In this document: piece after piece, positions 27,026-54,800 of the stretch
How positions within the stretch are numbered: the first letter of the stretch is position 1
Layout: each line of letters opens with the position of its first letter
Source: Planctomycetota bacterium
GTDB taxonomy: Bacteria > Planctomycetota > Phycisphaerae > UBA1845 > UTPLA1
Assembly: GCA_003576905.1 (NCBI GenBank)
Contig: QEVG01000031.1
Location: forward strand, 1 to 61,382
Direction: 5' to 3'
Length of the DNA stretch: 61,382 nucleotides
Made by a program: the position numbers and the translations under genes
The notes under the pieces: model-generated
What the model was told of the DNA's origin: nothing
Seen by the model: only the letters and a program-made list of their open reading frames with translations
Database searches by the model: none

Positions 27026-27795
27026 CTCCGCTTCAGTTCTTCGGGGAGGGGCTTCCGTACATCGAGCCCTTTGACTGCCCCGGGCTTCTGATCACGATCG
27101 AGGGCACCGACGGCGTCGGACGAACGACGCAGGTGGCGTTGTTGCGCGAATGGCTCGAAGTTCAGGGCTTCGGGGTCATTGAGACCGGATGGACGCGCAG
27201 CCAGCTCATCGGGCGGACGATCTCGCAGGCGAAGGAGGGACGTCTGCTCAATCCGCTGACCTATTCCCTGCTCTACGCGGCGGATTTCGCCGATCGCCTG
27301 GAGAAAGAGATCATCCCGGCGCTTCGCAGCGGGTTCGTCGTGCTGGCGGACCGGTACGTATTCACGGCGATCGCGCGCGACGTGGCGCGGGGGCTCGATC
27401 GGCAGTGGGTGCGCGACCTGTTCGGCTTCGCGCCGGTGCCGCACCTGGTGCTTTACCTGAAGATCGACATCGTGGAGCTGATTCGCCGGGTGATTCCGCG
27501 GGGGGTGATTGACTATTTCGAGTCGGGCATGGACCTGGGCCTCGGGGCCGATCCGTACGACAGCTTCAAGAAGTACCAAACGATGCTCCTGCGCGAATAC
27601 CAGAAGATGGCGGACGAGTTCGGGTTTCACGTGGTGAACGCGCGGTGGAAGCCCGAGCGTATTCACATGCGCCTGCGGGAGATCGTCACCGAGTTCATCC
27701 GGCAGCGGAAGTTTTCAGAGTGGGGGAGGGTCGCGCCGTCGGGGCCGGATGAGCCGAAGTCTCCGGGCGGCCTGTTCACGCGGTCGGCGGGGTAG
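27022..27795 (+). CDS. Thymidylate-kinase-like protein, paralogue 2, with Walker A Lys replaced by Arg
   Basis: A 257-residue homologue of the preceding protein. Shared elements are the P-loop region LLITIEGTDGVGRTTQ, RYVFTAIARDVARG, and FESGMDLGLGADPYDSFKKYQ. The Walker A lysine, normally essential for ATP phosphate binding, is Arg34, and the second glycine position differs. It starts with the ATGA overlap of the preceding gene. The simplest view is a regulatory, pseudoenzyme or heterodimer partner of paralogue 1. An active enzyme using Arg is also possible. The C-terminal extension (SEWGRVAPSGPDEPKSPGG) looks disordered. Confidence 0.75.
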   Translation: MTPLQFFGEGLPYIEPFDCPGLLITIEGTDGVGRTTQVALLREWLEVQGFGVIETGWTRSQLIGRTISQAKEGRLLNPLTYSLLYAADFADRLEKEIIPALRSGFVVLADRYVFTAIARDVARGLDRQWVRDLFGFAPVPHLVLYLKIDIVELIRRVIPRGVIDYFESGMDLGLGADPYDSFKKYQTMLLREYQKMADEFGFHVVNARWKPERIHMRLREIVTEFIRQRKFSEWGRVAPSGPDEPKSPGGLFTRSAG

Positions 27796-35773: not shown

Positions 35774-36409
35774 ATGGCAGTGAATCAATCGCTCATCCCA
35801 TTCGTCATTGAACGCAGCGGCCGCGGCGAGCGGTCGTACGACATTTATTCCCGGCTTCTCAAGGATCGGATCGTATTCCTCGGCGGAGGGATCGACGACG
35901 AGGTGGCAAACGTCATTATCGCCCAGATGCTGTTTCTGGCGAACGAGGACCCGCACGCCGACATTCACTTTTACATCAACTCGCCGGGCGGCAGCGTGTC
36001 GGCGGGGCTGGCGATCTATGACACGATGCAGTTCGTGCGGTGCGACGTGGCGACCTACTGCCTGGGCGTGTCGGCGAGCATGGGAGCGATCCTGTTGTGC
36101 GGCGGGGCGAAGAACAAGCGGTTCGCGCTTTCCAACTCGCGGGTGCTGCTCCATCAGCCGCTGATCGGCGGCGTGTTGCAGGGTGCGGCGACGGACCTTT
36201 CAATCGAAGCCGCAGAGATCCTCCGCCTGCGCGAGATTCTTTACGGAATTATCGCAAAGCATTCCAAGACGGACCTCAAAAAGATCGAAAAGGACTGTGA
36301 CCGCAACCTGTGGCTCGATCCCGTGGAGGCGATGGAATACGGCCTTGTCGATCGAATCCTGGAGCGCCAGCCCGAAATGCCGAAGCGGCCCGTCTCGGAC
36401 GACGACTAA
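35774..36409 (+). CDS. clpP: ATP-dependent Clp protease proteolytic subunit, paralogue 2
   Basis: A 211-residue ClpP. The triad is Ser102 (SASMGA), His127 (LLHQPLIGG) and Asp176 (DCDRNLWLD), with the same 25/49 spacing as paralogue 1. Both subunits should therefore be catalytically active. I chose ATG 35774 because AAGGAG lies 8 bases upstream; the frame is open from 35717. The two ClpPs differ considerably, which suggests a mixed-ring complex as in mycobacteria or cyanobacteria. The C-terminus has a short acidic tail (PVSDDD). The stop TAA shares a base with the next ATG. Confidence 0.92.
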
Positions 36410-37053
36410 TGGCTTCAAACGGCCGGACAGTTCCGCGGCGCTCCGCCGCAGCGGCGTCGCTCGCGGCGATCCTTGCGGGGGCGATCGCATGCAACGGGCC
36501 TTCGGCCGCTGATCCGCGCCTTACGCGCATTGCCGAGCTTGAAGACAAGGTCCAGCAGCAGGCCGCGGCGCTTACCCGAAAGGACGAGGAGATCGCCGCC
36601 CAGGCGCGGACGATCCAGGAGCTGCGCGGGTTTTCGGGGGCGCGGAGCATCGATCAGTTTGTCCATGTCTCCCGCGTCGAGATCGAGCGCCTGTCCGGGG
36701 GCTACGACGACGATCGGGACGGTATCGACGACGGCGTCGTCGCCTATCTCCGGCTCTTTGATTCGGAAGGCGATGTCATCAAGGCGTCGGGCTCCGCGGT
36801 CCTGGAGGCGTACGATCTCGCCGCCCCCGAGGGCCGTCAGCTTGTCGCGAAGCTCGAAGCGGACGTCGCCATGATGCGCTCGGTCTGGTTCGGCAAGCTC
36901 ATGACATCTCACTACACGCTGAAGGCTCCCTGGCTTCCGGACCGCAGGCCGCGGAACTCCAGGATCACACTGGTTGTGCGCTTCACCGACCTGCTCTCGG
37001 GAAACGTGTTCGAAGCCCAGCATGTCGCGGACGTCAAGGGCGCAACCCCATAG
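36409..37053 (+). CDS. Lipoprotein translationally coupled to clpP
   Basis: A 214-residue lipoprotein (signal RRSAAAASLAAILAGAIAC). A coiled coil follows (LEDKVQQQAAALTRKDEEIAAQARTIQELRG), then a region with an acidic YDDDRDGIDDGVV loop that may bind calcium, and a beta-type C-terminus (LRLFDSEGDVIKASGSAVLEAY, RITLVVRFTDLLSG). I do not recognise the family. The start codon overlaps the clpP stop (TAATG), so it is made along with ClpP. The frame opening at 36310 runs inside clpP in another frame and is not used. The link to protein quality control is a guess from position. Confidence 0.8.
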   Translation: MASNGRTVPRRSAAAASLAAILAGAIACNGPSAADPRLTRIAELEDKVQQQAAALTRKDEEIAAQARTIQELRGFSGARSIDQFVHVSRVEIERLSGGYDDDRDGIDDGVVAYLRLFDSEGDVIKASGSAVLEAYDLAAPEGRQLVAKLEADVAMMRSVWFGKLMTSHYTLKAPWLPDRRPRNSRITLVVRFTDLLSGNVFEAQHVADVKGATP

Positions 37054-37616: not shown

Positions 37617-40319
37617 GTGAATGCGAAAGTGAAGCCGATGGTAAGCAGCGACCCCGGCATCCGCCTTTCCTATCGAGAGGGGGATGTCGATCCGGGCGTT
37701 CAGGATATCAACCGTGTGCTCACGGTACTGGGCAGCGGCACCGGCTGTGACATCGTTCTCGATTCAGACCGCGTGGATCACGTGCATGCGGCGATCGTGC
37801 GGCTGGGCGAAGTCGCGTACGTCTGTGATCTCGGCGGCGCTGGCGGGACGCGCATCAATCAGCGTTTTGTACGGTGGGAGCGCCTTAACGACGGCGACGA
37901 ACTCGGATTGGGGCCGTTTGTTTTCGACGTGGAAATCGAAGCGCCGCGGCACGCGATCGTCGCGACGACCCGGCCCTTCAGTCTGCGCGAGGACCAGGCG
38001 TTCGGCGTGGTTCGCAGCGAGGATCCCGTCCTCCTGATCGGCAGCGACGCGACGTGCGACATCGTCCTGGGCGGAAGCATGGTTGCCCCGCGCCACGCGA
38101 TCGTGGTGTGGGGCAACGACGGTCCGATCGTGCGCGATCTGACCGGTGAACGGACAACCCGCGTCAATGGCAAGTGGGTCCGCGAGGCGGCGCTTCGGCA
38201 CGGCGATTCGATCGGCGTCGGGTCTTATGAGCTGATCTTCGAAGTCGGCAGCGCGCCAGCGACGGAGCATGCGCCGCGGCCCCGGGCGGAAGGTGCCTCA
38301 AACGCGACGCAATCGGGACCGGGCCGGATGGTCGCCGGAAAGGTCCCGGCCCGGCCAGCAGAGATCCCTCTCAAGTCGCTCGAGGACGAATCAATCGAGA
38401 TCGCGGAGCCGGCTTCGAGGACATTTGATCATCTGAACGAAGAGCAGGCCTCCATCGAGATGGTCCGGGCCATGGACGCGCTCTCTCGGGACCGCTCGTC
38501 GGAGGCCCCGGTAGATCTGTCGGAGGAGAGTTACGAGGGCGCCGAGCCGCTGAATGACTCCGAGGTGCTCGAACTTCTTGAAGACGTAGAAGAAGTGGAG
38601 GAAGCGACGATGGCATCCACGAACGCGGCGCCGCACCGACAGGCCGGAGCCGCGGGCCGTAACGGAAACGTAAAGACGCCGGGCGGAAACAGGACGGAAG
38701 CGGTCGACCTGATCGCCGCCGAACGGCTGGTGACTGAGTACGGCGACAACCTGTCCAAGTGTCCTCCGGACCTCAAGGCGCGGGTCGTCGCGGCGCAGAA
38801 CGCGCTTGATGAAAGGGCCCGTAAGCTGCGCAGCGAACTCGATTCGGAACGTGCCCGGCTCAGGGCCTGCCAGGACCAACTGCAGGAGCAGGCAAGAAAA
38901 CTGCTCGCGGCCGCGCGGAGCAAGGGCGCGCCGGCCGAAGGGGCGTTTCAGTCGCTCGATTCGGAAGCCGGACAGGCAATCGACGCTCCGGGCGGGCAGT
39001 CCGCCTACGCGGGCGCGGCATCCGAGGACAACGGAGACGGCTGGAAGGCGGACGTAACGACGCTGGAGCGGCTGTTCTCGGGAGCGGTCGATCTTGACGC
39101 GGCCACGCGGAAAAACGCGGGCGAAACGCTTCGCGCCGCATCCGGCCGACCGACCGACGGCAACGGGACGCGTTCCGAGGTACACAGTCTTCAGTGCCAG
39201 GTGGCCGAGCTGGCGAAGATGGTCCGCGAGGAGCGCGACGAGACGCGCACGGCGGAGGCGCGGCTCGAATCGCTCAAGTTTGAAATCGAGCGGCTTCGCG
39301 TGGACATCGTCCGCTCGCGCGAGAAGCACCGCGTCCAGCAGACGGAACACGAGGCGCGATATCAAGCGCTTCAGCGCAGCCTTGCGGCGGTTAAACACGA
39401 GCGCGAGTCGCTCATGGCGAGACTCCGGCGTCTCGATGCCAAGGAGTCGGCCCTGAACAGTCGGGCGACGGAGGCTGATTGCGTTCGAAAGGACCTGGAG
39501 CACGAAGCAGAGCGGATCTCGCGCAATCAGGAGCTGCACGATGAGCGGGTGCGCGAGTTGCGCGTCGGACTGGAGAGCGAACGCCACCGCCTCCGGGTCC
39601 GGCAGGCCGAGATGCAGCGGAAGGCGAGCGAACTGGCCAAGCTGGCGAAGGCACGTCGAAAGGCCATCGAGGAAATCGTGAACCAGCAACAGGCGGCGCT
39701 CAAGGAACAGGAAACCGAGCTCAAGTCGAAGCGCTCGGCGCTGATCGAGGCAGGCCGCGCCGAGCTGGAACGCACTGCGACTGAACTGGAGCAGCTTTTG
39801 AGCGTCCGGCTCGCGGACGTGGAGAGCGAACTCCTTTCGCGCCAGGAGAATCTTGAAGGCTGGATTCACGCGATTTATGACGCCAACCGGCCTGCATCCC
39901 TTACCGAGGCGCCGTCCCGGGAGAATGTCACCCGACTGCCCAAAGCCTCGGCTGGAATCGGCGCCGAACCGGCAACGGTGGATCGCATCGGCATCAGCGG
40001 CGAAAGCCGGCACCTCGCGACGCTGGAGAGCGAGTTGGAAGGACTGCATCGCGCCGTGCTGCGGCTCGAGGAAGACAGCGACCGGAAGACCGTGCCCCTG
40101 ACACAAACGCCGGCATACAGCAACTACTCGGAAGGTCCGCCGGCCTGGTCGCGACCGACGCGGTGGAGCGGCGGCCTGACGAGCCGTCTGAGCGAGAAGC
40201 TGTCCTCCCTGCGGACCGGCATAGAGGACATCGCGCGGTCAGTCTCATCAAGCAAATTGTCAACCGAAGCGGGCGGAATCGACGAGAAGCTGGACGCCGC
40301 CGCGAGCGGGAGTATCTGA
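37617..40319 (+). CDS. Double-FHA-domain coiled-coil protein
   Basis: A 900-residue protein starting at GTG 37617 with GAGAGG upstream. FHA-like domain 1 is about residues 18-105 (LGSGTGCDIVLDSDRVDHVHA, then DLGGAGGTRINQ). FHA-like domain 2 is about 125-210 (LIGSDATCDIVLGG, VAPRHAIVV, DLTGERTTRVNGKWV). The phospho-threonine contacts are altered in both: the GR arginine is Ser, and the SRxH motif is DHVH or APRH. A Ser/Thr/Pro-rich linker with a Glu-rich patch (EVLELLEDVEEVEEA) follows. Long Arg/Glu-rich coiled coil runs from about 375 to 770. It lies 175 bp upstream of the giant coiled-coil gene and is probably its partner. Confidence 0.75.
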   Translation: MNAKVKPMVSSDPGIRLSYREGDVDPGVQDINRVLTVLGSGTGCDIVLDSDRVDHVHAAIVRLGEVAYVCDLGGAGGTRINQRFVRWERLNDGDELGLGPFVFDVEIEAPRHAIVATTRPFSLREDQAFGVVRSEDPVLLIGSDATCDIVLGGSMVAPRHAIVVWGNDGPIVRDLTGERTTRVNGKWVREAALRHGDSIGVGSYELIFEVGSAPATEHAPRPRAEGASNATQSGPGRMVAGKVPARPAEIPLKSLEDESIEIAEPASRTFDHLNEEQASIEMVRAMDALSRDRSSEAPVDLSEESYEGAEPLNDSEVLELLEDVEEVEEATMASTNAAPHRQAGAAGRNGNVKTPGGNRTEAVDLIAAERLVTEYGDNLSKCPPDLKARVVAAQNALDERARKLRSELDSERARLRACQDQLQEQARKLLAAARSKGAPAEGAFQSLDSEAGQAIDAPGGQSAYAGAASEDNGDGWKADVTTLERLFSGAVDLDAATRKNAGETLRAASGRPTDGNGTRSEVHSLQCQVAELAKMVREERDETRTAEARLESLKFEIERLRVDIVRSREKHRVQQTEHEARYQALQRSLAAVKHERESLMARLRRLDAKESALNSRATEADCVRKDLEHEAERISRNQELHDERVRELRVGLESERHRLRVRQAEMQRKASELAKLAKARRKAIEEIVNQQQAALKEQETELKSKRSALIEAGRAELERTATELEQLLSVRLADVESELLSRQENLEGWIHAIYDANRPASLTEAPSRENVTRLPKASAGIGAEPATVDRIGISGESRHLATLESELEGLHRAVLRLEEDSDRKTVPLTQTPAYSNYSEGPPAWSRPTRWSGGLTSRLSEKLSSLRTGIEDIARSVSSSKLSTEAGGIDEKLDAAASGSI

Positions 40320-40494
40320 TCGGAGCACCCATAGGGGTATCCGTTCGAGTGAGTGAAGTCATGCGGTCGGGTTTAGACGGGACATGCAGGGCAGAGGCGA
40401 TTGCCACGGGGCTGTTCTCCGCGCCGCTCCGCCCTTGGGCCGATGGGCAATGTCTCCGGAATCCAACCTCCTTGAATGTGATGAAGGCACGCTC

Positions 40495-43400
40495 ATGAAC
40501 CAATCGCCGACCGGTTCGACCGGGTCACCTTCGCCGAATGAAGAGAATCCCAACCTGGCATCGAGCCTCGAATCGTTCGCGGCCGGTCTGCCGTCGCTGT
40601 CTCCCGCACAGGCTGACTTGAGCAGCCAGATGGCCCGGGACCTCGATCGGCTCAAGCGCGTTTCCGAGCACCTATCCGTCTCGCAATCGTGGGCCGAGCA
40701 GTATTCCGATGAGGCCAGCGCTCTATCTGCGATGGCTCATGGGCCCATCCTGTCTCCCACGGGGACCGGGCCTGGGTTCGGGGGCTTCGGAGGGATTCGG
40801 CGCGGGCTGTCGCGTACGCCCGACCTGTTGAGCCTCCACAGCGGCGTGTGGCAGTTTGGTCAGCCGGGCACACCGGTGGCGGGGCAATCGCTTCCGGCAC
40901 CGGAGCCGCTACACTATTCACATGGGGGCAGGGGCGGGTCGCACGAGTCGCCCGTGATACCCGGGGACGTCCGCGCCGGTGGAGTTCGATCGTCGGCTAT
41001 TCCCTTCGGCAGCGCGGCGAGGGCGACGATTCCCTTCCCCGGCGACACCGCGCATGGCGGCGGGGGCGCCGGCGGCCAACCAGGCGGATCAACAACCGGA
41101 AACGGGGCCAGGCAGAAATTGAATCGCACCGGCGGACCGCCCAGGGCGGTCGACAAGGCGGAAGAGCTGCGACAGCGCGTCGCACGGGCCCAGCAGGCGC
41201 TGGACGAGCGCGCCGAAAAGATCAAGGCGGCGCTGGCGAGGGAGCGCGAACAACTCAAGGCCTTTCAGGCCGAGCTTGAGGCCAAGGCAGTCGAACTTCA
41301 GAAGGTTGTCGCGCAGCGGCAGGAGGCCCTGGAGCGCGACTATGCGGCACGGCGCGCCTCGCTCGAATCGCAGCAGAAGGAATTGCAGCGGCGCTGGGCC
41401 GAGGTGGAGGGCCGGCAGGCAGCCATCGAAGAGGCCAACCGGGCATTCCTCGATCAGCAGAAGAGCGAGCTTCAAAAGGCCGCGGGAGCGCGGCTGGAAC
41501 AGATCGAGCGCGGCGCGCTGAACCTTCAGCAGCAGCTCGAGCAGAAGTCCCGCGAGTTGACCGAGCGCGAGGCGCAGCTCGAGCGGACTGTCGCCGCCCG
41601 GCGGGCGGAGCTCGAGCGCCAGTTTTCCGATCTTCAGGTCAAGCTGGAGTCAAAGCAGAAGGCGCTGAGCGAGCGCGAGGCGGAGATCGAGCGTGTCGCG
41701 GCGGAGCGGTTGGGCCAGGTGAAGCGCGACGCGGCGGCGCTCCAGGCGCAGCTTGAGGCGAGGCAGCAGGAAATCTCGCGGCGCGAGGCGAATCTTGATC
41801 TGAACACGCGCGGCCGGCTTGAGAGCGTCGAGCGCGAGATCGTGCAGAAACAGAGCCAGATAGAGGCACGGGAGCGGGCCCTGGTTCAGCGCGAGGCGGA
41901 GGTCGAACAAAAGACGCTCGCGCGGATCGCCGAGGCGGACCAGAAAGCGCAGGCCCGAATCGCCGAGGCCGAGCAGAGGGCCCAGGCCCGAACGGCGGAA
42001 GCGGAACAGAAGGCCCAGGCGCGGACGGCCGAGGCGGAACAAAGGGCTCAGCAAAAAGTCTCCGAGGCCGAGCACGCGGCCCGCGCGAAGCTCGCGGAGA
42101 TCGAACGCGACGTCGCGGCGCGGCAGGCGGACCTGGATGCCCGTGAGAAGGCCTGGGCCAAGCGGCAGGCGGAGCTTGAGCGGGCCGCCGCCGCCCGGCT
42201 GGAACAGATCGAACGGAACGCGACCGCTATTCAGGGCAAGGCGGAGACGAAAGAACGGGAGTTGAGCGAGCGCGAGTCGGCGCTGCGTCAGGCGGAGCTG
42301 GCGTACCAGGCCGAGCGCGAGCGCGAGTCGGCTGCGCGCAAACAGGAACAGGATCGACAGCAGCAGATTCTCGCCGAGCGGGAGCGCGAGCAGGAACAGA
42401 AGCTCAAGGCGCGACAAGCTGAGATCGAACGCAAACTTGAAGAGCGCGAGGCGGAGCTGGATCGCAAGCGGCGCGAGTTTGCGCAGAAACAGGCCGAGCA
42501 GGAGGAAGCCGCGCAGGACCGTATCCGGGAGATCGAGCGGGAAGCCGTCGAACGACGGGCGGAACTTGAGAAGAAGATCGGAGCGCTTTCCCGCCGCGTC
42601 GCGGACCTGGACCGGGCGGCGGCGTCCCGAATGGCCGAGGTTGAGGAAGAAATCGCGGCGCGACGGACGGAGTTGGAGGAACGGTACAAGGAACTCTCGG
42701 CGCGGGATGTCGAACTGCGCACCCAGCGCGAGCACTTCGAGCGGGAGCGAGAGGCCAAGGCGTCCGAGCTTAAGGCGCGGGCGAAGGAGCTGGCCGACCT
42801 GGCGAAGGTCGAGCGCGATCGCCTGACGGAAGAGGCCCGCGCGGCGCGGGCGCAGCTTGATGAACTCACGCGTTCGCGGCAGGCCGAGCTTGAATCGGTT
42901 CGGGCGTCCGTCGAAGAGCGCGAGATCGCCCTGGTGCGGCGTGAAAACGACTTCAAGGTCTTCATCACGAACCTTGAGCAGCGTGAATCCGCGATCGCCC
43001 GGAAGGCCGAGGAGCTTGAGCAGCGCGCGTCCGCTCTGGAAAAGTCCGCCGCGGAGATCAAGGAGCGCGAGACCCGGTATCAGGCATGGCAGGAGCGGAC
43101 GGCGGAGACGGAGCGGCAGATTACGGCCGCCCGCGAGCAGCTCGAGAAGGAGCAGGCGGAGCTGCGGAAGGGTCAGGAGAAGCTCGCGGAGATGCGCGCG
43201 AGCCTTGAGGCGCGTGCAAAGGAATACGAGGAGGAGTCGGAACGGCTTGCCGAGCAGCGGCAGAAGCTCGAGGAACGGTACGCGGAAATCCGCAAGGACC
43301 ATGCCGGCCTCGAGTCGAAGCTGGAGGACCTGCGCAAGATCAAGACCGAGATCGAGATTCAGGCGAAGGACGTCTCCGAGAAGCGCGCCCGGCTGGACGA

Positions 43401-46400
43401 CATCGACGAGAAGTCGCGACATTACGAGAAGGTGCGGGCGGATGCCGAGGCACGGGCCGCGGACATCGGCCGGCAGGAAGACGTGTTGCGTCAGCGCATG
43501 ATGATCGTCGAGCGCGAGGCGAGCGAGAACGAACAGGCGCGCAAGTATCTCGAGGATCTTCGCGACCGTCTGGCCGTCCAGGACCGCGAGCTCAAGGAGC
43601 GCGAGGACCGGCTTCACAAGCGGATCAGTGAGAGCCGTGAGCTCGAGGAGCGCCTGCGTCGCGTCGCAGCGGAGCAGGACAGCGAGAAGAAGCGCCTGGG
43701 CGCGATGCAACAGGCGCAGACGCAACAGGCGGAGGAACTCGAGACGCTCCGTCGGGAAGTGACCGAGCAGAAGAGCCGTCTCCAGGAGGCGCAGGCCGAA
43801 CTGCGCGGCGATCGCGAGGCACTGACACGCCAGGAGCAGGCGTACCGGGCGCAGGAAAGCGAGCTGCGCCGCGAACAGCATCGCTGGGCGGCGGAGCGGG
43901 AGAGCTGCGAGCGCATCAAGCAGGATCTATCCGCGGAGGCCGAGCGGCTCAGCCGGCAGCGCGACGAACTGGCGACACGTGAGTCGGAGCTCAGCGAGCA
44001 GCGGACGCAGCTCGAGCGGGTCGCGGAAAAGGTCAAATCACAGGAGCGAGCCCTTGCCGAGGAGCGGTCGTGCGTCACGGCCGCGCGAGGCGAGGCCGAG
44101 GAGACGCGCAAGGAACTGGCCCGCCGGATCACCGAAACGGAAGAGCTTCGGCGCCAGCTTCTCGAAAAGGCCGAGCGGCTGCGCGACCGGAAGGCCAAGC
44201 TGGCCACAGACGCGGCAACGGTAGATGCCAGACTAAAGGCACTAAATGTCGAGCTCGAATCCGCCAAACGGGAGCGGTCGGGCATCGCGCAGGAACGCGA
44301 GAAGCTGGAGCGCGACCGTCGGGAACTGGCTGCCGAGCGCGAGGAGTTTCATCGGCAGCGGGCGGATTTCAAGCCGGGGGCGGCGTGGTCGAAGGAAGTC
44401 GGGGCGTCGCTTGATGACGAGGCCCGGCGGCTGGTCGCGAAGGAAGAGCAGATCGAGGAACAGGGCCGCCAGCTCGACGGGCTTCGCGGAAGGCTGGAGC
44501 GGGAGCAGATCGAGCTTCAGCAGCGCCGCTCGGAGATCGAGGCCGCGCAGCGCGATCACCGCGACGCCGTGGAGCAACTCGAGATCATGATGAAGCGGGC
44601 GCGCGAGATGGCCGCCGAAGTGCACTCGCGCGAGGCCGCGTTCAAGGATCGCGAGCGATCACTGGCCGCGCGGGCGGTGGAGCTCGAGGAGACGCAGCGG
44701 CGCATTCAGCGGCAAGCCGAGGAATTCGAGTATCGCCGGCGCGAAGTGGAACGGCAGGGTGAGGAACTCGGCCGGCTCCGCGCGGAGTTGGAGTCCCAGG
44801 TCGATTCGCGCAAGGCCGAGGAGATCCGCGAGAAGTCGGAGCTTACGCGGCGGGAGGAGGAAGTGGAGCGCCGCTGCCGCCAGCGGCTTGAGGAGGCCGA
44901 GAAGTTCGTCGAGCGGCGCCTGGCCGAAGGCGAGGAGGCCATTGCCCGGCGGCAGGAAGCGCTTGAAGAGGAAATGAACCGCCGCCGGCAGAGCGCGGAG
45001 GGTGAGATTGAATCGATGCGCTGCCGCCTCGAGTCGGAGCTGGAGGATCTTCGCAACCGGCAGGCGGCCATCCGCGAAGAACAGGATGCGATTCGCAAAG
45101 AGCGCGAGTACATCTCCGCCCGGGCACGGCAAGTCAAGGAAGACAAGGCGATCGACGCCGTTCGTGCGGGGACGGCCGAAGAACGCGAGGGTTCGCAGGT
45201 CGGCGTGGTCGCGGGCGACCGCGCGGACTACGAGAGTTTCGACGAAGACGCGCTCGAGCCGCTGCTCGACGAGCACGATAAGGACGTTTCGGATAGTTGG
45301 ATCGGCACGGCGTCGCGGCGGCGGCCGATCGCCGGAACGGCAGGCACCGGTCCCTCGCGAAGCGGGCGGCGGTTCAGTCCGGCGCTAAGCGGGATAGTGT
45401 CCCTGGTCATTGGCGCGATCGTGACGGTCGGATACATCTGGTCGCCGCAGCGCACGGTGGAAGTAAACGGCGAAATCCGGCTCCAGGACAAGGGCGTCGC
45501 GGCCGCCGACCAGCTGAATCAACTGCTGCGCGACCCGACGGTCATTCGTCAGGCTTCGGCGCTGGCGGGCGTGAATCTGGACGAGATGCGACGCGACGGA
45601 ACAATTGAGTTTCGAACTTCCGACGCCGGAGACGCCATCCATATGACGGCACGGGTGGACGCCGGCCAGCAGGCTTCGGCGCAGCGCTGGCTTGCGCTGA
45701 TCGGCAGCGCCTATGAGCAGTCGGTCGGCCGGAAAGCAGGCACACTTGACGATTCCCAGTACCGGCTCGGAAAGCTGCAACTGGAGCGACAGGAGAAGCT
45801 GGACGCGCTCGTGGCGGCGCGGCGGGAAGTCGAGCAGATGCAGGCGGAAATCGATTCGGCCGAAGGGGCGATCGACGTGGAGGCGGCCCGGCGCAACAAG
45901 GAACGACTGAAGCGGGAGATCGGCGTCGCCCTTGACGAGATGAATCGTGCCCGGGCGGCGTTGGCGGATTTCGAGTCCACGCCCCCGCCGACCGGTCCGA
46001 TCGTGCCGACGGATACGCAACTGGACGATGCGTACCAAAGCGACGTTGAGCTCTCCCAGGCGATCGCGGAGCGCGAAACGAAGGCGCGGGAGTGCTGGCA
46101 GGAGTTGAGCCGGGTGGTCCGCGATTCTCGGGCGCCGTTCGGGCGGCTCGAGCAGACTGTGACGGCGATGGCGGCCGAGGTGCAGAAGCTGCTGGGCGAG
46201 GAAACCAACGCGGAGATTCGAAAGGAACTGGAGTCGATGGCGACGGACCTCGCAGCGTACCAGTCCGAGACGCAGCGGTTCGCGAAACAGTGGGGGGACG
46301 TCGCGCCGAAGATCGAGGGCTGGGAGATCGGGGACGACCCGGCGACGCTGCTTGAGTATCAGAATAAGGCCGAGACACTGGTTCGAGACTACTACGGCAA

Positions 46401-47115
46401 GTCGCGTCTGTCGTTCAGTTCGGCCGCGGAAAAGGCGGACGCGATCGGGCGGCAGGGGGCGGAGATGACCAAGCGCCGGGTGATTCAGAACGCGCTGACG
46501 TCGCTAGCGCACGACAGCCTGGAGGCGCGGAACAACTGGATCGTGGTCGCGCGGCTGACAGTTCCGCGGTACAACGTGGCTCTGAAGGCACTGTGCGACT
46601 CAATCACGGACCTCGCGCCTCGGATCGAAAAACGGAAGGAATACCATAAGGAGCGGCTGACGAAGGAACTGATGGCGGCGCGGGACACGGAGATGGCCCG
46701 CCAACGCGAGTCGCTGCGGGAAGCGGTGGATAAGGCAGCCCGGCGGCACCAGGAGCTTTCGGATCGGTTTGTGAAAATCGACACGACCGCGACGGTGAAC
46801 GAGAAGGCGCTGGCAGATCTTAATGGGCTTCGGGATCAGATTCGCACCCGGCAGGAACAGATCGCGGTAATGGAGCGCGACGTGCAGGCACTTGACGAGG
46901 AGATCAAGCAGGCGGCGACGGCCGCACCGGCGGCTGTTCCGTCCTCGGTCAAGTACCATGCCACGGCGTCGATCGTTCCGCCGGTGTTCGATCCGGCAAA
47001 GCGCGGGACGGGCATCGGCCTTGGCGCGGCGGCGGCGGTGCTTGTCTTCATCATTACGTGGTCCCTGCGATCCGGACGGCGCGGCGCTGCATACTCGCCT
47101 TCGGTCGCGCGGTGA
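40495..47115 (+). CDS. Giant membrane-anchored coiled-coil protein (PCP/Wzz-like topology)
   Basis: A 2206-residue protein. The start is ATG 40495; the frame opens at 40384 and other Mets are possible. Residues 1-215 are Gly/Ser/Pro-rich. Residues about 217-1580 are almost uninterrupted charged coiled coil with hendecad repeats. An acidic linker (YESFDEDALEPLLDEHDKDV) follows. Then comes a transmembrane segment (ALSGIVSLVIGAIVTVGYIW, about 1629-1649), a roughly 500-residue domain that is itself partly coiled coil, and a second transmembrane segment (GLGAAAAVLVFIITWSL) near the C-terminus. Cytoplasm, membrane, outside, membrane, cytoplasm is the polysaccharide co-polymerase layout, but the cytoplasmic rod is extreme. 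It may be a cytoskeletal or envelope scaffold. Confidence 0.75.
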   Translation: MNQSPTGSTGSPSPNEENPNLASSLESFAAGLPSLSPAQADLSSQMARDLDRLKRVSEHLSVSQSWAEQYSDEASALSAMAHGPILSPTGTGPGFGGFGGIRRGLSRTPDLLSLHSGVWQFGQPGTPVAGQSLPAPEPLHYSHGGRGGSHESPVIPGDVRAGGVRSSAIPFGSAARATIPFPGDTAHGGGGAGGQPGGSTTGNGARQKLNRTGGPPRAVDKAEELRQRVARAQQALDERAEKIKAALAREREQLKAFQAELEAKAVELQKVVAQRQEALERDYAARRASLESQQKELQRRWAEVEGRQAAIEEANRAFLDQQKSELQKAAGARLEQIERGALNLQQQLEQKSRELTEREAQLERTVAARRAELERQFSDLQVKLESKQKALSEREAEIERVAAERLGQVKRDAAALQAQLEARQQEISRREANLDLNTRGRLESVEREIVQKQSQIEARERALVQREAEVEQKTLARIAEADQKAQARIAEAEQRAQARTAEAEQKAQARTAEAEQRAQQKVSEAEHAARAKLAEIERDVAARQADLDAREKAWAKRQAELERAAAARLEQIERNATAIQGKAETKERELSERESALRQAELAYQAERERESAARKQEQDRQQQILAEREREQEQKLKARQAEIERKLEEREAELDRKRREFAQKQAEQEEAAQDRIREIEREAVERRAELEKKIGALSRRVADLDRAAASRMAEVEEEIAARRTELEERYKELSARDVELRTQREHFEREREAKASELKARAKELADLAKVERDRLTEEARAARAQLDELTRSRQAELESVRASVEEREIALVRRENDFKVFITNLEQRESAIARKAEELEQRASALEKSAAEIKERETRYQAWQERTAETERQITAAREQLEKEQAELRKGQEKLAEMRASLEARAKEYEEESERLAEQRQKLEERYAEIRKDHAGLESKLEDLRKIKTEIEIQAKDVSEKRARLDDIDEKSRHYEKVRADAEARAADIGRQEDVLRQRMMIVEREASENEQARKYLEDLRDRLAVQDRELKEREDRLHKRISESRELEERLRRVAAEQDSEKKRLGAMQQAQTQQAEELETLRREVTEQKSRLQEAQAELRGDREALTRQEQAYRAQESELRREQHRWAAERESCERIKQDLSAEAERLSRQRDELATRESELSEQRTQLERVAEKVKSQERALAEERSCVTAARGEAEETRKELARRITETEELRRQLLEKAERLRDRKAKLATDAATVDARLKALNVELESAKRERSGIAQEREKLERDRRELAAEREEFHRQRADFKPGAAWSKEVGASLDDEARRLVAKEEQIEEQGRQLDGLRGRLEREQIELQQRRSEIEAAQRDHRDAVEQLEIMMKRAREMAAEVHSREAAFKDRERSLAARAVELEETQRRIQRQAEEFEYRRREVERQGEELGRLRAELESQVDSRKAEEIREKSELTRREEEVERRCRQRLEEAEKFVERRLAEGEEAIARRQEALEEEMNRRRQSAEGEIESMRCRLESELEDLRNRQAAIREEQDAIRKEREYISARARQVKEDKAIDAVRAGTAEEREGSQVGVVAGDRADYESFDEDALEPLLDEHDKDVSDSWIGTASRRRPIAGTAGTGPSRSGRRFSPALSGIVSLVIGAIVTVGYIWSPQRTVEVNGEIRLQDKGVAAADQLNQLLRDPTVIRQASALAGVNLDEMRRDGTIEFRTSDAGDAIHMTARVDAGQQASAQRWLALIGSAYEQSVGRKAGTLDDSQYRLGKLQLERQEKLDALVAARREVEQMQAEIDSAEGAIDVEAARRNKERLKREIGVALDEMNRARAALADFESTPPPTGPIVPTDTQLDDAYQSDVELSQAIAERETKARECWQELSRVVRDSRAPFGRLEQTVTAMAAEVQKLLGEETNAEIRKELESMATDLAAYQSETQRFAKQWGDVAPKIEGWEIGDDPATLLEYQNKAETLVRDYYGKSRLSFSSAAEKADAIGRQGAEMTKRRVIQNALTSLAHDSLEARNNWIVVARLTVPRYNVALKALCDSITDLAPRIEKRKEYHKERLTKELMAARDTEMARQRESLREAVDKAARRHQELSDRFVKIDTTATVNEKALADLNGLRDQIRTRQEQIAVMERDVQALDEEIKQAATAAPAAVPSSVKYHATASIVPPVFDPAKRGTGIGLGAAAAVLVFIITWSLRSGRRGAAYSPSVAR
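41941..42072 (+). repeat. Four 33-bp (11-residue) tandem repeats in the giant coiled coil
   Basis: Units start at 41941, 41974, 42007 and 42040. They encode QKAQARIAEAE-like hendecads. DNA similarity between units is high, especially units 1-3, which points to recent slippage or unequal crossing-over within the rod. Confidence 0.8.
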
Positions 47116-47139: not shown

Positions 47140-48228
47140 ATGCCGCGCGTGCTCATGCTATCGACCGACCTCGAGCGCGGCGGGCTGCCGCTGAGGCTGG
47201 TGCGCCTGGCCGAGCGACTGCGCGGGACCGGCATCGAGCCGGTGGTGGTGTGTCTGACCCGCGAGGGTCCGCTTTCCAAAGAGCTTCGGCAGGGCGGAAT
47301 AGAGACGTTCGCGTGCGACGCAGGGGGGCGTTTTGACCTGTCGTGCCTTTGGCGACTGGCGCGGGTCGTGCGGCGGTATGCGCCAGACGTGATCCACGCC
47401 TCCTTATTTCATGCCAACATCGCGGCGCGGCTTACCGGGCGGGTGGATCGCCCGCGGCCGATCATCACGTCCTCCGTGACCATTGAGATTGAGAGAGCGT
47501 GGCATCGCTGGGGCGAGGCGGCGACCATTGGTGCGTCGGACCTGCATGTCGCAAATTCGCGGGCCGTGGCGCGGCATCTTGTCGATGAGCTGGGGTTTCC
47601 GGAGCACAAGGTGGTGGTCGTACCGAACGGGATCGACCTTGGGGCGATCGAGCGGACGGCGGCGATCGGGCGCGCGGAGCTCGGGATCGATGCGGATACT
47701 TTTCTCATCGTGTGGGCCGGGCGGATGGACCCGGTGAAGGACCTTGCGACGCTGGTGGCTGCGGTGGAGCGGTTCGCGCGGACGCACAAGGCGACGGCAC
47801 TGTTGCTCGGAGACGGGCCGGAGCGCGGGCGCGTCGTTGCGATGATTCGCGCGCGCGGGCTCGGTGGTGTCATACGCATGGCAGGATGGGTGGAATGCCC
47901 GGCCGCGTACGTGAAGGCGGCGAACTGCCTGCTCTTTCCATCGCGGACGGAGGGAAGCCCGAATGCGGTCCTGGAGGCAATGGCGTGCGGATGCCCGGTT
48001 GTGACGTCGGACATCCCGGCGTGCGCCGAGCTGGTGCGCGACGGGGAGAGCGGGCTCTTGTGCCGAGCTGGTGACGCGGACGGCTTTGCAGACGCGCTGT
48101 TGCAGACGGCGGCGCGGCCGGTACGTGCCAAGGTGATGGCACAGGCGGCCCGGGCGGCGGCGGCGGGGCACGATCTTGGCAGGGTCGTGCGGCAGTGGGT
48201 GGACCTGTACGAGCGCGTCCTGGGCTGA
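47140..48228 (+). CDS. GT4-family glycosyltransferase
   Basis: A 362-residue GT-B transferase. The N-terminal domain starts MPRVLMLSTDLERGGLPLRLVRL and contains DVIHASLFHANIAARLTG. The link VVPNGIDLGAIER is typical of GT4 enzymes. The C-terminal nucleotide-sugar domain has AGRMDPVKDLATLV, LLLGDGPERGRV, then E-x7-E in RTEGSPNAVLEAMACGCPVV. It transfers a sugar to a lipid, polysaccharide or protein; donor and acceptor are unknown. It starts 25 bp after the giant coiled-coil gene, so it may belong to the same transcript, which supports a surface-polysaccharide connection. Confidence 0.88.
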   Translation: MPRVLMLSTDLERGGLPLRLVRLAERLRGTGIEPVVVCLTREGPLSKELRQGGIETFACDAGGRFDLSCLWRLARVVRRYAPDVIHASLFHANIAARLTGRVDRPRPIITSSVTIEIERAWHRWGEAATIGASDLHVANSRAVARHLVDELGFPEHKVVVVPNGIDLGAIERTAAIGRAELGIDADTFLIVWAGRMDPVKDLATLVAAVERFARTHKATALLLGDGPERGRVVAMIRARGLGGVIRMAGWVECPAAYVKAANCLLFPSRTEGSPNAVLEAMACGCPVVTSDIPACAELVRDGESGLLCRAGDADGFADALLQTAARPVRAKVMAQAARAAAAGHDLGRVVRQWVDLYERVLG

Positions 48229-48496: not shown

Positions 48497-48988
48497 ATGG
48501 TCTTTACCGGGTACTACGAGCATGGCATCGATGACAAAAACCGCCTGGCGATCCCCGCGAAGTTCCGAGCGATATGGGACCCGGATCGCCATGGCAAAGG
48601 GTTCATCATCGTGCCGGGCCGCAGGCCCCGGACGCTCTGGCTCTACCCCGACAAGTTGTTTTCCGAGCTGTCGGCCTGCTTTCGGTCCTCCCTTCTGCCG
48701 GATGAACAGCAGCACGATTTTGAGGAGATGTATTACACGTTCTCCGACCATTTGGAAATGGACTCGCAGGGCCGAGTGGTGTTGCCGGAGCGAATGCTGC
48801 GGCGAGCAGGGCTCGGCAAGGATGTCGTGATCTGCGGCGTAAAGGATCATCTTGAGATACACCGGAAGGACGACTTCGCGCAACGGTTCGGCGACGATCG
48901 ATGGAACAGTTTCGGAGAGGTCCTGGCAAAGGCCAGCGACGTTGTACGACGAGAAGAGCGGCAACCCGGCCCCGAAGGGGGCCGGTAA
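48497..48988 (+). CDS. mraZ: MraZ, transcriptional regulator of the division/cell-wall cluster
   Basis: A 163-residue protein of the AbrB/MraZ superfamily. The N-terminus MVFTGYYEHGIDDKNRLAIPAKFR carries the first family motif DxKGRxxxP as D-D-K-N-R (Gly to Asn). The second half has MDSQGRVVLPERML. MraZ forms a ring-shaped DNA-binding oligomer that represses or activates its operon. Operator boxes are visible upstream. Normally rsmH (mraW) and ftsL follow mraZ, but here the next called gene is a TMTC-like protein 530 bp away, so this copy stands alone. Confidence 0.88.
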   Translation: MVFTGYYEHGIDDKNRLAIPAKFRAIWDPDRHGKGFIIVPGRRPRTLWLYPDKLFSELSACFRSSLLPDEQQHDFEEMYYTFSDHLEMDSQGRVVLPERMLRRAGLGKDVVICGVKDHLEIHRKDDFAQRFGDDRWNSFGEVLAKASDVVRREERQPGPEGGR

Positions 48989-49520: not shown

Positions 49521-51632
49521 GTGGGCATGGGTCGATCAACCGGGCGAAGCGGAAGAGGAGGCGGCCGGAAGAACGGCCGAGCGCCAGGCGGCCGGGGGGC
49601 TGCGGCAGGCCCGACGATTGCGGAGCCCCGGGGGCGTCATGGGCTTTCGGCAGCCTGGCTTCACGAGCCGGCCTGTGTCGCAGTAATCGTCTTGGCGGGA
49701 GTCGCGGCCTATGCCAACAGCTTCGCGGGGCAGTTCGTCCTCGATGATCAGATAACGATCATCCACAATCCTCTGATCCGGCAGGCATTGCCGCTCCGGC
49801 GATTTTTCGATGTATCTCAGCCGCTGACGGATTTGTCGCTGGCCATCAATTACGCCTTCGGGGCGCTCGATCCGTGGGGCTATCACCTCTTTAACCTGGG
49901 TGTGCACGTCGTCGCCGGATTGGCGCTGTTTGGTGTCATAAGAAGGACACTCCGTTCACCACGCATGGGTTCACGAGCGTATGGGGCGACGGGCTTTGCC
50001 CTCGCGGCGGCGCTGCTTTGGCTGGTGCACCCGTTACAGACGGAGAGCGTGACGTACGTTATTCAGCGGTGCGAGTCGATGGCGGGGATGTTCTACCTGC
50101 TGACGCTCTACTTTTTCTTGCGCTACTCCGGCGCGACGTCGCACGAGCCGGACGGTGTTGGCGACGCGTCCGGCGGAAGGGGACGGCGGCTATGGGGGAT
50201 TGCCGCCGTGGCGGCGTGTGCCTGCGGCATGGCGACAAAGCCGATCGTCGTGACCGTGCCGGTGGTGGTGCTGCTTTACGACCGGACGTTTCTGGCCGGG
50301 GGGTTCGGCGAGGCGATCCGCCGGCGGTGGCCGGTGTACCTGGGGCTGGCCGCGGGTTGGCTGGTGCTCTGGGGGCTTGGGACCATTGACGGTCTGCTGA
50401 ATGAGTCTTCGGAAACGGCGACGGTGGGCTTCGGCTATCAGGGTGTGACGCCGCTTGCGTATCTGCGGACGCAGCCGGAGATCCTGCTGCACTATCTCCG
50501 TCTCGCGGTCTGGCCGGTCGGGCAATGTCTGGACTATGGGTGGCGGGTGTGTCCGACGTGGCGCGAGGCGGCGCTGCCAGCGGCCGTCGTTGCCGCGCTT
50601 GTGGCCGGAACGGCCTGGGCCACGTGGCTGCGAAGGCCGGCAGGTTTTCTCGGCTGCTGGTTCTTTTTGATTCTGTCGCCGACTTCGAGCTTTGTGCCGA
50701 TCAAGGACCTCGCGTTTGAACATCGAATGTATTTGCCGCTGGCCTCGGTCGTCGTGCTGATCGTGTCGGGGGTCCAGGCGGTGGTCGGCAGGCTTGGTTC
50801 GGCGCGGGCGAAGCTGGCGCGCTGGGTCCTCGTGGGGACGGCTACGGCGCTCCTTGCAGTGCTTACGATTCGTCGCAATGCGCTCTACGCGGATGCGACG
50901 GCGCTCTGGTCGGACAACGTCGCGAAGGCGCCGCATCATGCGCGGGCGTGGAACGGACTGGGATACGCGCTTCTGGCGGCTGGGGAGACAACACGGGCAA
51001 TTGAGAATTTCCGCAAGGCGGTGCAGCTGGAGCCGGATTTCGCGGAGGCGTACGCCAACCTGGGCAAGGCGTACTTCAGCATGGGGCGGATGGAAAACGC
51101 GGTGCGAGAGTTTCGCATCGCGTGGTCGCTGAAACCGGGGGCGTTCTGGGCAGATACGCACTTTTATTTCGGCGCGGCCCTTCTGGAGACGGAGCGGTAC
51201 TCGGAAGCGGTGGATCAGTTGCAACTGGCGATTGGGAAGAATTCACAGTATCGCGCCGCGTATTACAACCTCGCAAATGCGCTTTGGGCGATGGGCGACC
51301 GGGACCGGGCGGCAGCCGTCTTCCAGCAGGCGCTGGCCGTCGATCCGGGCTATACCGAGGCGGCCGTGAATCTTGGTTTGGTCAAGGCGGAACAGGGAAA
51401 GCTTAACGAGGCGGTGGCGAGCTATCGAAGCGCGATAGGGGGTTTTCGTCCGGGTGGAAACCCAGACGCACTGACCAAGGCACACTATAACCTCGGGCTG
51501 GCATTCAAGGCGATGGGCCGAGTGAATGAGGCGATGCGGGCGTTTGAGCAGGCGCTCCGTGTGAATCCCTCGCACGAGGCTTCGCGGCGGGCGTTGGAGG
51601 AGTCTCGCAGGGGTGCGGAGTCGGAGCGTTAG
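49521..51632 (+). CDS. TMTC-like multi-pass membrane protein with C-terminal TPR repeats
   Basis: A 703-residue protein. After a basic Gly-rich N-terminus of about 45 residues there are about eight to ten transmembrane segments. The first loop has FVLDDQITIIHNPLIRQ, and TESVTYVIQRCESMAGMFYLL follows, both reminiscent of TMTC/GT-C O-mannosyltransferase-like proteins. From about residue 460 to 700 are six or so TPRs (AWNGLGYALLAAGETTRAIE, AYANLGKAYFSMGRMENAV and others). It may glycosylate exported proteins or handle polyprenol sugars; this is inferred from layout. GTG at 49521 and ATG at 49527 are both possible starts, with AGAGG upstream. Confidence 0.8.
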   Translation: MGMGRSTGRSGRGGGRKNGRAPGGRGAAAGPTIAEPRGRHGLSAAWLHEPACVAVIVLAGVAAYANSFAGQFVLDDQITIIHNPLIRQALPLRRFFDVSQPLTDLSLAINYAFGALDPWGYHLFNLGVHVVAGLALFGVIRRTLRSPRMGSRAYGATGFALAAALLWLVHPLQTESVTYVIQRCESMAGMFYLLTLYFFLRYSGATSHEPDGVGDASGGRGRRLWGIAAVAACACGMATKPIVVTVPVVVLLYDRTFLAGGFGEAIRRRWPVYLGLAAGWLVLWGLGTIDGLLNESSETATVGFGYQGVTPLAYLRTQPEILLHYLRLAVWPVGQCLDYGWRVCPTWREAALPAAVVAALVAGTAWATWLRRPAGFLGCWFFLILSPTSSFVPIKDLAFEHRMYLPLASVVVLIVSGVQAVVGRLGSARAKLARWVLVGTATALLAVLTIRRNALYADATALWSDNVAKAPHHARAWNGLGYALLAAGETTRAIENFRKAVQLEPDFAEAYANLGKAYFSMGRMENAVREFRIAWSLKPGAFWADTHFYFGAALLETERYSEAVDQLQLAIGKNSQYRAAYYNLANALWAMGDRDRAAAVFQQALAVDPGYTEAAVNLGLVKAEQGKLNEAVASYRSAIGGFRPGGNPDALTKAHYNLGLAFKAMGRVNEAMRAFEQALRVNPSHEASRRALEESRRGAESER

Positions 51633-51742: not shown

Positions 51743-51853
51743 GCAGGGGCCAGCCAAGAATCGACGCATGTTCCGGACTGTGGAAATGCTCTAGGGTTTT
51801 TTGTTTCTGAGGGGCGGCGAGTGATTCCATTCGCCGGCCGTGAAAGGAATCTC

Positions 51854-54800
51854 ATGTCGAAAGTGCTCCTGCCCCGTCTGCGCGCCGCGCTTGCCATTGC
51901 TGTTTCGATTATCGGATTCACGGTGGAAGGTCTTCACGCAGACCTTCGATTGCAGTCGGGAACCGTGACACTTGAGAAGAGTGACTCGTCCCAGGCGGCG
52001 GAGAAAGTCTCCCAGCTCGCACAGGGGCGCGCCGCCGGTTCGCACATCGTTGTTCAGTTTGACGCCCCGGTGTCGATCGAGGATCGAACCAAGCTGGAGG
52101 CAAACGGCTTGCGGCTCCTGGACTACCTCGCGGACAACGCCTATTTCGCGGCAACGGATGCGAGCCGATTGAATGCGGCTGAAATCGGACAGGTGCGGAG
52201 CCTGCGGTCCGTGGCACAGATTGAAGTGGAATGGAAGCTCCATCCGCTGATCAACCAGGGCGTGGTGCCGACGTGGGCGGCGGTGACACCGATACCGACT
52301 CCGGAGGAGGGCCGCAAGGAAGCGCCGAGCGCCAAGGAACTGGAGGCCGCACGGAACCCGGTCGTCGGCGCGTACGTCCGGTTCCACTCGGACGTGGATT
52401 TGTACACCCAGGGAGTGCACCTGGCGCGGCAGTACGGGGCAAATGTGCGCGACTACCTGCGGACGGTGAACGGGCTGGTGATCGAACTGCCGTTCGAGAC
52501 GATTTCGGCGCTGGCGGCGGAGGACTCGGTTCAGTGGATCGAGCCGGCGCTTCCGAAGCTGAGCGAGTGCAACGCGGAGAACCGGACCATCACGGGGGCC
52601 GACATCGTCCAGGCTGCGCCCTACAACCTGAGCGGCTCCGGCGTGGCGGTGCTGGTGTATGATGGAGGGACGGGCTTTTCGACGCACCAGGACTTCGGCG
52701 GGCGGCATACGAATGGAGATACCGACTCTGTCTCGGACCACGCGACGCACGTGGCGGGCACGGTCGGCGGCAGCGGCGTCGCGTCCGGCGGCGTGGAAAA
52801 GGGCATGGCTCCCGGCGTGACCATCTGGGGTTATGGGTTTGAGTACGACGGGTCGGGGACGTTTCTGTACACGAATCCCGGTGATATCGAGGCGGACTAC
52901 GGCGAGGCGATTAACGTCCACGGCTGCGATATATCGAACAACTCGATCGGCACGAACACGGAGCCAAACGGATTCCCGTGCAGCTACCAGGGCGACTATG
53001 GCCTGACATCGATGGTGATCGATTCGATCGTGCGGGGCTCGCTCGGCGCGCCGTTCCGCGTGGTCTGGGCGAACGGCAACGAGCGGCAGGGCAGCCGGTG
53101 CGATGTCGAGGGCTACGGCGACTATTACAGCACGGCACCGCCCGCCGGATCGAAGAACCATATCGCCGTCGGCGCGCTAAACGCGAACGACGATTCGATG
53201 ACGAGCTTCTCGAGCTGGGGGCCGGTGGATGACGGACGAATCAAACCGGACGTCTCGGGGCCCGGGTGTGAAAACGGCGGTGACGGCGGCGTTCGCTCCT
53301 GCGCGAGCAGTGGGACGACGGCCTACTCGGTGAAGTGCGGAACGTCGATGTCCTCGCCCACGGTGTGTGGACTCAGCGCGCTTCTGCTTCAGGACTATCG
53401 GGCGCAATACCCGGGCAATCCTGATTTCCACAATGCGACGCTCAAGATGTTTCTGGCACATACGGCGGTGGACCTTGGCAACCCGGGGCCGGATTACCAG
53501 TTTGGTTATGGCTCGGTGCGCATCCAGCCGGCGATCGACTTCATGCGGTCGGGCAACTTTCTCGAGGGATCGCTCTCGCAGGGCGAATCGCTCAACGTGC
53601 TTGTGGCGGTGAACCCCGGCGACTCCGGGCTGAGAGTAACCCTGGCCTGGGATGACTTTCCGGCGACCCCGAACGCGAACCCGGTGCTGGTGAACGACCT
53701 GGACCTGGTGGTTTTCGATCCGTCGAACAACCAGCGGTTCCCCTGGACGCTGAATCCTCTGAGTCCTTCCTCGCCTGCCGTGCAGACGCAGGTGGATCGC
53801 GTCAACAACGTCGAGCAGGTCTTTGTGGCGAATCCGCCGCCGGGCGTGTACCGCGTCGAAGTGCGCGGCTTCAACGTGCCGCAGGGCCCGCAGACCTTTT
53901 CCCTGGGCGCCTCGCCGATCCTGCTGAATTGTTCGAGCCAGGGCGTCATCGCGATGGATCGCAACAAGTACGCGTGCGCGGCGACAGTGACGCTGCGGGT
54001 GATCGACTGTGATCTGAACACGGACGACAACGTGGTCGAGACGGTTTCGGTAAACGTCGCATCAAGCTCCGAGCCGGGCGGGGAGACGGTTCTCCTGACA
54101 GAATCGGGCGCGGAGACGGCGACTTTCCTCGGCACAATTGACATTGCGACGGCAGACGCGGCGGGCGTATTGCTCGTGGCCAACGGCGATACCGTGACGG
54201 CCGCATATCTTGACGCCGACGACGGGATTGGCGGCATAAACGTTCTCGTGACGGACACGGCGACGGTGGATTGCGCCCCGCCGGTGATTTCAAACGTTCA
54301 GACGACGGCGATCGCAGCGCGAAACGCGACGATTACCTTTACGACGAATGAACCGGCCACGGGGACCATCCGCTACGGCCTGACGTGCGGGGCGCTGGGG
54401 AGCACGCAGTCTTCGGGCGGGAGTAATCTGAGCCACTCGATCACGCTCAATGGTCTTCAGGACAACACGACGTACCATTTTGCCGTTGACGCAGTCGACG
54501 AGGCGGGTAACGCGGCGACGGATGACAACGGCGGGCCGTGCTATTCGTTTACGACGCCGGAGGTGCCTGAGCAGTTCACCGAACTCTTCGACGGAGGGGA
54601 CAACGACCTCGACAACGTATCGCTGACGTTCATTCCGAACGGCTCGAATGACTTTTACGCGGCGTGCGCTACGCCGATCATTGCGTTTCCGACGGATCCG
54701 ACGGGCGGCACGGTGCTGAGCCTTTCGGACGACGGCAACGCGAATGTCTCGCTGACCGGCGGGGCGCAGGTCTGGATCTACGGAACGGCTTACAGCAACT

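Follow-up and report, generated by a model that had tools for sequence, protein, structure and literature searches.

Polysaccharide co-polymerases (PCPs) are described in PMC12220298 as having a periplasmic domain with extended helices between two transmembrane segments (TM1 and TM2); the same paper describes E. coli KpsE, a PCP-3 protein, with TM1 only. FHA domains are found in a different membrane assembly, the type III secretion ring, as parts of YscD/PrgH-type proteins; their phosphothreonine residues are not conserved, and PrgH, with poorly conserved FHA residues, is judged an unlikely phosphothreonine binder in PMC3635987. Our literature searches found nothing on planctomycete FHA domains with coiled coils and polysaccharide, nothing joining polysaccharide co-polymerases, coiled coils and FHA domains, nothing on exopolysaccharide and Wzc in Phycisphaerae, and, among the papers listed, none judged relevant on giant coiled-coil proteins in planctomycete genomes. 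For FHA domains with Wzz the one paper found concerns lipocone domains. The cytoplasmic reach of known PCPs is limited to short tails or a tyrosine kinase (partly PMC12220298).

The locus described here lies in a window (the whole stretch of DNA analysed) of 61,382 nucleotides from a planctomycete genome, and encodes a double-FHA protein and a giant coiled-coil protein, hereafter the rod protein. Like Wzc (PCP-2a), the rod protein has two predicted TM segments around a periplasmic alpha/beta base and long helices. Unlike Wzc it has no C-terminal tyrosine kinase, since its tail past TM2 is ∼15 residues and holds no BY-kinase, and it has instead an N-terminal cytoplasmic coil of ∼1380 residues and an FHA partner. 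KpsE partners an ABC exporter, whereas none was seen among the ORFs scanned at the rod locus, and the rod protein is predicted with two TM segments. The Pfam model Yop-YscD_cpl matches the FHA pair (62 bits), a likeness to YscD/PrgH, but here the FHA domains are in tandem, a coil follows them, the FHA protein has no TM segment, and no secretion-ring genes were seen among the ORFs scanned. The gliding-motility protein GltG gives a weak NCBIfam match through the FHA domains, at 38.8 bits far under the 650-bit cut-off. Our preferred reading, in which our confidence is evenly divided, is a single machine encoded in two halves by the FHA gene and the rod gene, with a PCP-type membrane end, a ∼200 nm coil and a degenerate FHA cap.

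The FHA, rod and GT4 glycosyltransferase ORFs are consecutive genes in that order (Table 1). An earlier note on this DNA had placed a 900-residue double-FHA protein 175 bp before a giant rod gene, with a GT4 gene right behind, and had given the rod about 1360 residues of near-continuous coiled coil and two TM segments flanking a domain of about 500 residues. All of this is borne out: the ORFs and two Pfam FHA domains agree, the FHA-to-rod distance is 175 bp, 24 bases intervene before GT4, a charged, G/P-poor stretch from residue ∼206 to 1585 has a measured heptad period, and the two hydrophobic peaks above 1.4 (residues 1626–1652 and 2169–2194) lie 543 residues from each other, each with positive charge flanking it on its predicted cytoplasmic side. 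An alternative in-frame ATG at 40384 would give a 2243-aa rod; the start at 40495 has, by eye, the best-looking ribosome-binding sequence among the in-frame ATGs shown (AAGG, 7 nt upstream). The giant frame is not a chance one, since, counting the own genome, 15 of 17 genomes of the family have frames of at least 1973 aa that encode the same C-terminal domain.

Table 1. Features of the FHA-rod locus, in window coordinates
Feature	Position	Strand	Basis
Small conserved gene between clpP2 and FHA gene, lipoprotein-like (by eye)	36310..37053	+	ORF list, gene order
Double-FHA protein with C-terminal coiled coil, 900 aa	37617..40319	+	ORF, Pfam, domain scan, relatives' loci
FHA domain 1; GR motif = GS, canonical Ser = Asp	37722..37913	+	domain scan, residue comparison
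FHA domain 2; GR motif = GS, canonical Ser = Ala	38034..38222	+	domain scan, residue comparison
Coiled-coil motif common with rod start, copy 1, FHA-protein residues 378–429	38748..38903	+	sequence comparison
Coiled-coil segment similar to rod start, copy 2, FHA-protein residues 632–747	39510..39857	+	sequence comparison
Giant rod protein, 2206 aa	40495..47115	+	ORF, hydrophobicity, relatives' loci
Low-complexity N-terminal linker of rod	40495..41109	+	sequence composition, comparison with fused G005
Heptad coiled-coil rod, ∼residues 206–1585	41110..45249	+	composition, heptad periodicity
Coiled-coil motif common with FHA protein, rod residues 210–268	41122..41298	+	sequence comparison
TM segment 1 (predicted), ∼residues 1627–1648	45373..45438	+	hydrophobicity, flank charge
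Predicted periplasmic domain, PCP (co-polymerase) topology	45439..47001	+	AF2 model, structure and profile comparison
Alpha/beta base of PCP-like domain	45454..45735	+	model, profile comparison, base model neighbours
Last beta strand before TM2	46948..46974	+	model
TM segment 2 (predicted), ∼residues 2170–2192	47002..47070	+	hydrophobicity, flank charge
GT4 glycosyltransferase, next gene in 15/16 assessable same-family genomes	47140..48228	+	Pfam, NCBIfam, gene order
mraZ, after GT4 in 15/16 assessable same-family genomes	48497..48988	+	gene order

Elsewhere in the window, two thymidylate-kinase-family ORFs lie side by side (26324–27795), and a Ppx/GppA gene adjoins a CHAD-domain gene (23657–26337), suggesting polyphosphate metabolism. 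A 1721-aa subtilase (51821–56986) has matches to Big_9, NIDO-like and dockerin, and a 1210-aa ORF (17359–20991) has no Pfam match at 1e-5. At 49521–51632 a TPR-repeat protein with several TM segments matches a PMT glycosyltransferase weakly; relatives of it lie downstream of mraZ in five of the same-family loci read.

Searched with the last 604 residues of the rod, 42 of 120 genomes (own included) have a match, among them 17 of 17 of the same family; the FHA protein matches 16 of those 17, the miss being G004. Those relatives that carry a name are planctomycete and Phycisphaerae genomes, and two or more were assembled from metagenomes. Conserved pairing of the two genes, whose absence the earlier note had named among the results that would speak against its proposal, was found: separate adjacent FHA and rod genes occur in the same order in 13 of 17 same-family genomes, 12 to 175 nt apart in the 12 split genomes with both on one contig, and three more, from three genera, have one frame with FHA pair, coil and membrane module (G005, 2253 aa and cut by the contig end; G011, 2094 aa; G013, 2074 aa). 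The pair of G007 sits at a contig end, so its rod is cut, with the membrane part on another contig. G004 has an 802-aa two-TM form without FHA domains at the corresponding locus. Outside the family 25 genomes match, and the 20 loci read encode two-TM homologs of ∼610–1350 aa with a shorter coil or none; the second TM segment of some is visible only at a lower threshold, and the 513-aa frame of one (L097) contains unread bases. No match to the membrane domain at E 1e-10 was obtained among the five candidates scored per genome in 245 further genomes sampled across the phylum; as far as this sampling goes, the domain thus looks restricted to the source genome's order. As side observations, a short homolog of family f4 has genes for a diadenylate cyclase (DAC) and a pseudouridine synthase upstream of it (L095, 2951–6147), and an aldo/keto reductase precedes the short form in G004 and likewise in two f8 loci tested.

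The GT4 gene is a less telling neighbour. The earlier note's FHA-rod-GT4 order holds as gene order: the sole exception among the 16 assessable genomes is G012, where GT4 lies 5.6 kb from the rod (G005 stops at the contig end). Two of the gaps are negative, from ORF calls starting too early, the GT4 ORF of G015 was called short, and positions for G004 come from a separate locus reading and GT4 search. The mraZ gene after GT4 is cut by the contig end in G012 and was not found in the 2 kb left after GT4 in G016. As a witness to a pathway shared with the rod, however, GT4 is weak evidence, since GT4-mraZ occurs also without the rod. GT4 relatives are found at 1e-60 in 92 of 120 genomes, and GT4-mraZ-mraW stands without a rod at three of eight out-of-family GT4 loci read (G022, G065 and G075), followed in G065 by a LysM protein, a transpeptidase and a Mur ligase; in G039 mraZ and mraW are at least 3.6 kb downstream of GT4, and neither was found at the other four loci. 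From these rod-free loci, the older partner of GT4 may be the cell-wall cluster. On the other side of the locus, the order clpP1-clpP2-small gene precedes the FHA or fused gene in nine of 17 genomes, in G004 the short form is preceded by a single clpP and the small gene, and the full order was not seen in the stretch read from the other seven same-family genomes.

In three relatives (G004, G011 and G013) the locus heads the cell-wall/division cluster GT4-mraZ-mraW-ftsI, and the rod makes up most of its protein. Both facts would suit a cytoskeletal or division scaffold whose rod organises the cell, for instance at the division site, and whose PCP-like part is only a membrane anchor that handles no polysaccharide. 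No export partner genes were seen beside the rod among the ORFs scanned, neither flippase nor polymerase nor outer-membrane exporter, and the own genome has other Wzz-type proteins (two over the Pfam cut-off and two weaker). We nevertheless regard such a scaffold as possible but doubtful. The inter-TM spacing is nearly constant (502–581 residues in 30 of 37 homologs measured) and the periplasmic domain has conserved positions, so that a working domain is expected and not a bare anchor; in the own genome, moreover, mraW is on another contig.

Evidence on the membrane module comes from models and profiles. The AF2 model (pLDDT 80.7, pTM 0.44; structure models were built from four sequences) gives the order strand-helices-strand-strand-long helices-strand between the TM segments. 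With the topology predicted from the sequence, this places two TM segments around a periplasmic domain with extended helices, as in PCPs. A profile of 32 homologs, built on the C-terminal 593 residues of the rod protein (1614–2206), was aligned by hhalign with 15 Wzz/Wzc-type proteins: 13 with usable frames, picked among 30 Wzz-profile loci listed in relatives, and two from the own genome, one of which falls just under the Pfam cut-off. The match reaches 98.2% (E 3.2e-14) with the register kept from TM1, and the reversed full profile only 9.3%. The alpha/beta base alone gives 93.4% and scores 44.9, where the highest score among 100 column permutations is 11.5, and the base without TM1 gives 73.6%; permuted controls, 100 each with and without TM1, reach 0.27% at most. 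The helical part alone gives 89.1%. A Pro-rich stretch with the TM2 region is a PCP feature; the C-terminal slice at the TM2 end has 4–5% probability and scores of 16–17, over permuted maxima of 10–13 (up to 60 permutations each).

A sensor-like helical bundle, unrelated to PCPs and alike only by its long helices, would also fit part of the structural comparison. Against the PDB the full model scores generic helical bundles on top (up to Z 16.1), outranking four Wzc entries (Z 9.9–11.1, rmsd 8.6–15.1), and the sensors TorS and PilJ are about level with Wzc; yet, among the best 50 rows, only the four Wzc chains begin before residue 130 and reach across both end strands. Because helical bundles dominate the PDB matches of the full-length model, the base was also folded by itself. 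The base model (pLDDT 70.2) has KpsE as best solved neighbour, a borderline match (Z 7.4, 3.8 A over 112 residues) in a range where unrelated folds score too; KpsE entries take ranks 1, 3, 5, 6 and 9 in the VIA list. Plain Foldseek gives the base model no match at E 0.001. PDB sequence matches of the periplasmic domain are mostly generic coiled coils, with Wzc at E 0.0012–0.0033 only, and Pfam, NCBIfam and PDB sequence searches gave it no clear family. What makes the sensor-like bundle quite unlikely is that the base slice still matches the Wzz base without the long helices, where controls stay below 1%, that KpsE leads its fold neighbours, and that coiled-coil control profiles reach just 24.5% and 8.4% against the Wzz/Wzc profile.

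Pfam Wzz (PF02706) was not matched at its cut-off by the rod or among the families listed for its homologs, and a Wzz-profile search of the own genome and relatives placed none of the matches listed at the rod locus. With a profile match, borderline structural support and Pfam Wzz unmatched, we restrict the label PCP-like to profile and predicted topology and leave the module outside Pfam Wzz. The Wzz-type layout proposed in the earlier note thus stands as profile similarity; the comparison of residues ∼1650–2170 with Wzz that the note had called for is borderline, with KpsE leading for the base and Wzc spanning the ends, but helical bundles ranked higher. Another family of the same class includes a 2625-aa protein (L145 in G118, 5470–13344) that starts with an FHA pair, continues for ∼1700 acidic, Pro/Ala-rich residues and has two TM segments 624 apart around helices. 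Its layout is that of the rod family, but the arm looks disordered and not coiled; hhalign gives 88.7% to the rod membrane-domain profile and 12.5% to the Wzz profile, and kinship is uncertain.

Both FHA domains of the FHA protein are clear members of Pfam PF00498 (8.7e-23, 81 bits against a cut-off of 20.7). Clear folds, a GT4 gene next door and an Arg in FHA1 kept by two of the three fused proteins might point to a classical phospho-signalling scaffold, in which the domains read phosphothreonine and control glycan synthesis. We compared them with the five conserved FHA residues, including Arg41 and Ser55, given in PMC4238996. Among the 13 split proteins, the Gly equivalent is kept in both domains of all, His in 13 (FHA1) and 12 (FHA2), and Asn in 12 of each; the Arg41 equivalent is missing from FHA1 in 13 and FHA2 in 12, and the Ser55 equivalent from FHA1 in 12 and FHA2 in 11. 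No fused protein keeps the Ser. Of the other FHA loci in the own genome, five of six read by eye have both Arg and Ser (two further FHA places were left out). Without the phosphothreonine-reading residues, and with PrgH as a precedent, a signalling role is very unlikely and was put low; docking is the likelier function of these domains. The scaffold of the earlier note, coupling cytoplasmic signalling or organisation to envelope polysaccharide, keeps its FHA-rod pairing, but its signalling is unlikely to run through the FHA domains. Eleven further loci of families f2 and f8 (L146-L152, L155, L156, L158, L159) have an FHA pair and long coil in proteins of ∼1040–1540 aa without the TM pair, and a TPR protein gene adjoins this gene in four of the f8 loci.

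The coil has a hydrophobic period of 3.495 residues and a windowed heptad power of 0.96, against 0.51±0.06 in shuffles. Across 15 giant forms (G007 and G004 were left out), the main coil is 1125–1685 residues long and heptad power exceeds the shuffle mean in all 15; the best single period is 3.49–3.54 in 13, and the maximum of the other two is at the edge of the scanned range. At 0.1485 nm per residue, and supposing one straight coil, this makes 167–250 nm; the predicted rod would be ∼200 nm long, if straight, and would point into the cell. Coiled coils match SMC proteins generically, and a membrane-anchored, SMC-like tether of the chromosome or DNA was put low as extremely improbable: the rod's best NCBIfam matches are SMC models, but at 39 bits against curated cut-offs of 567 and 729 and inside the coil, and no Pfam domain was found in the rod, so that it does not count among SMC proteins, which are marked by ATPase heads and a full-length model score.

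Sequence similarity also links the two halves of the preferred FHA-rod machine. A coil motif is shared by FHA protein and rod (in the window at E 2e-11 and 9e-6; of the 12 genomes compared, 11 reach 4.5e-6 or better and G002 0.001), although coil and low-complexity composition inflates all such match values. A profile of the rod's N-terminus that includes the first coil segment matches the coil of the FHA protein (1e-19) and fused G005 at residues 239–545 (3.3e-31), directly behind the FHA pair, but not fused G011 or G013; the FHA-coil profile matches G005 at residues 430–565 and 922–1076. The shared motif and the G005 match fit a tandem duplication of a fused gene with complementary loss. A fused gene that split later is the likelier order, although the trees conflict, and the strongest argument is that in G005 the FHA pair and the rod start lie too close together to leave space for the long coil that the FHA gene itself has. 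The midpoint-rooted tree of the membrane domain is in favour, with fused G011 and G013, then fused G005, below the 13 split genomes (split clade 95/96). The FHA tree is neutral, placing the three fused forms together (98/92) with the family root unresolved. The two-marker tree (aconitase and trigger factor) is partly against: in it G005, represented by trigger factor alone, falls within the split genomes (93.1/87), and the family as a whole does not form a single clade, the forks concerned having weak support.

That fused and split forms both occur naturally suggests that the two genes make up a single machine. Its C-terminal end would be an inner-membrane PCP-type module of TM1, alpha/beta base, long periplasmic helices and TM2, which would oligomerise in the inner membrane, as PCPs do, with the rods reaching into the cytoplasm as a bundle. 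Near the rod N-terminus the FHA protein would dock through the coiled-coil motif common to the two proteins, and the N-terminal FHA caps, without phosphothreonine-reading residues, would dock another cytoplasmic partner. The docked caps might then fix the distance or position of a step of envelope-glycan or cell-wall assembly. What has been computed is the architecture, the split and fused states, the order of the genes, the degeneracy of the FHA residues, the PCP-like profile and the predicted topology; the oligomer, the direction and length of the rod in the cell, the docking of the halves and the glycan role are what we infer. A bolder form, which we think rather unlikely, is a new kind of cell-organising element: inner-membrane PCP-type rings with ∼200 nm coil bundles and phospho-independent FHA caps, acting as ruler or tether that links a cytoplasmic partner with the cell-wall/division cluster or with a glycan machine, and with an origin in an FHA-rod protein that joined a short PCP and later split into two genes.

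The idea of one machine is directly testable. A PCP-like module with a coil arm about as long as a good part of the cell radius would be a new link between envelope assembly and cell organisation, and the setting of such an arm is a phylum with unusual cell plans.
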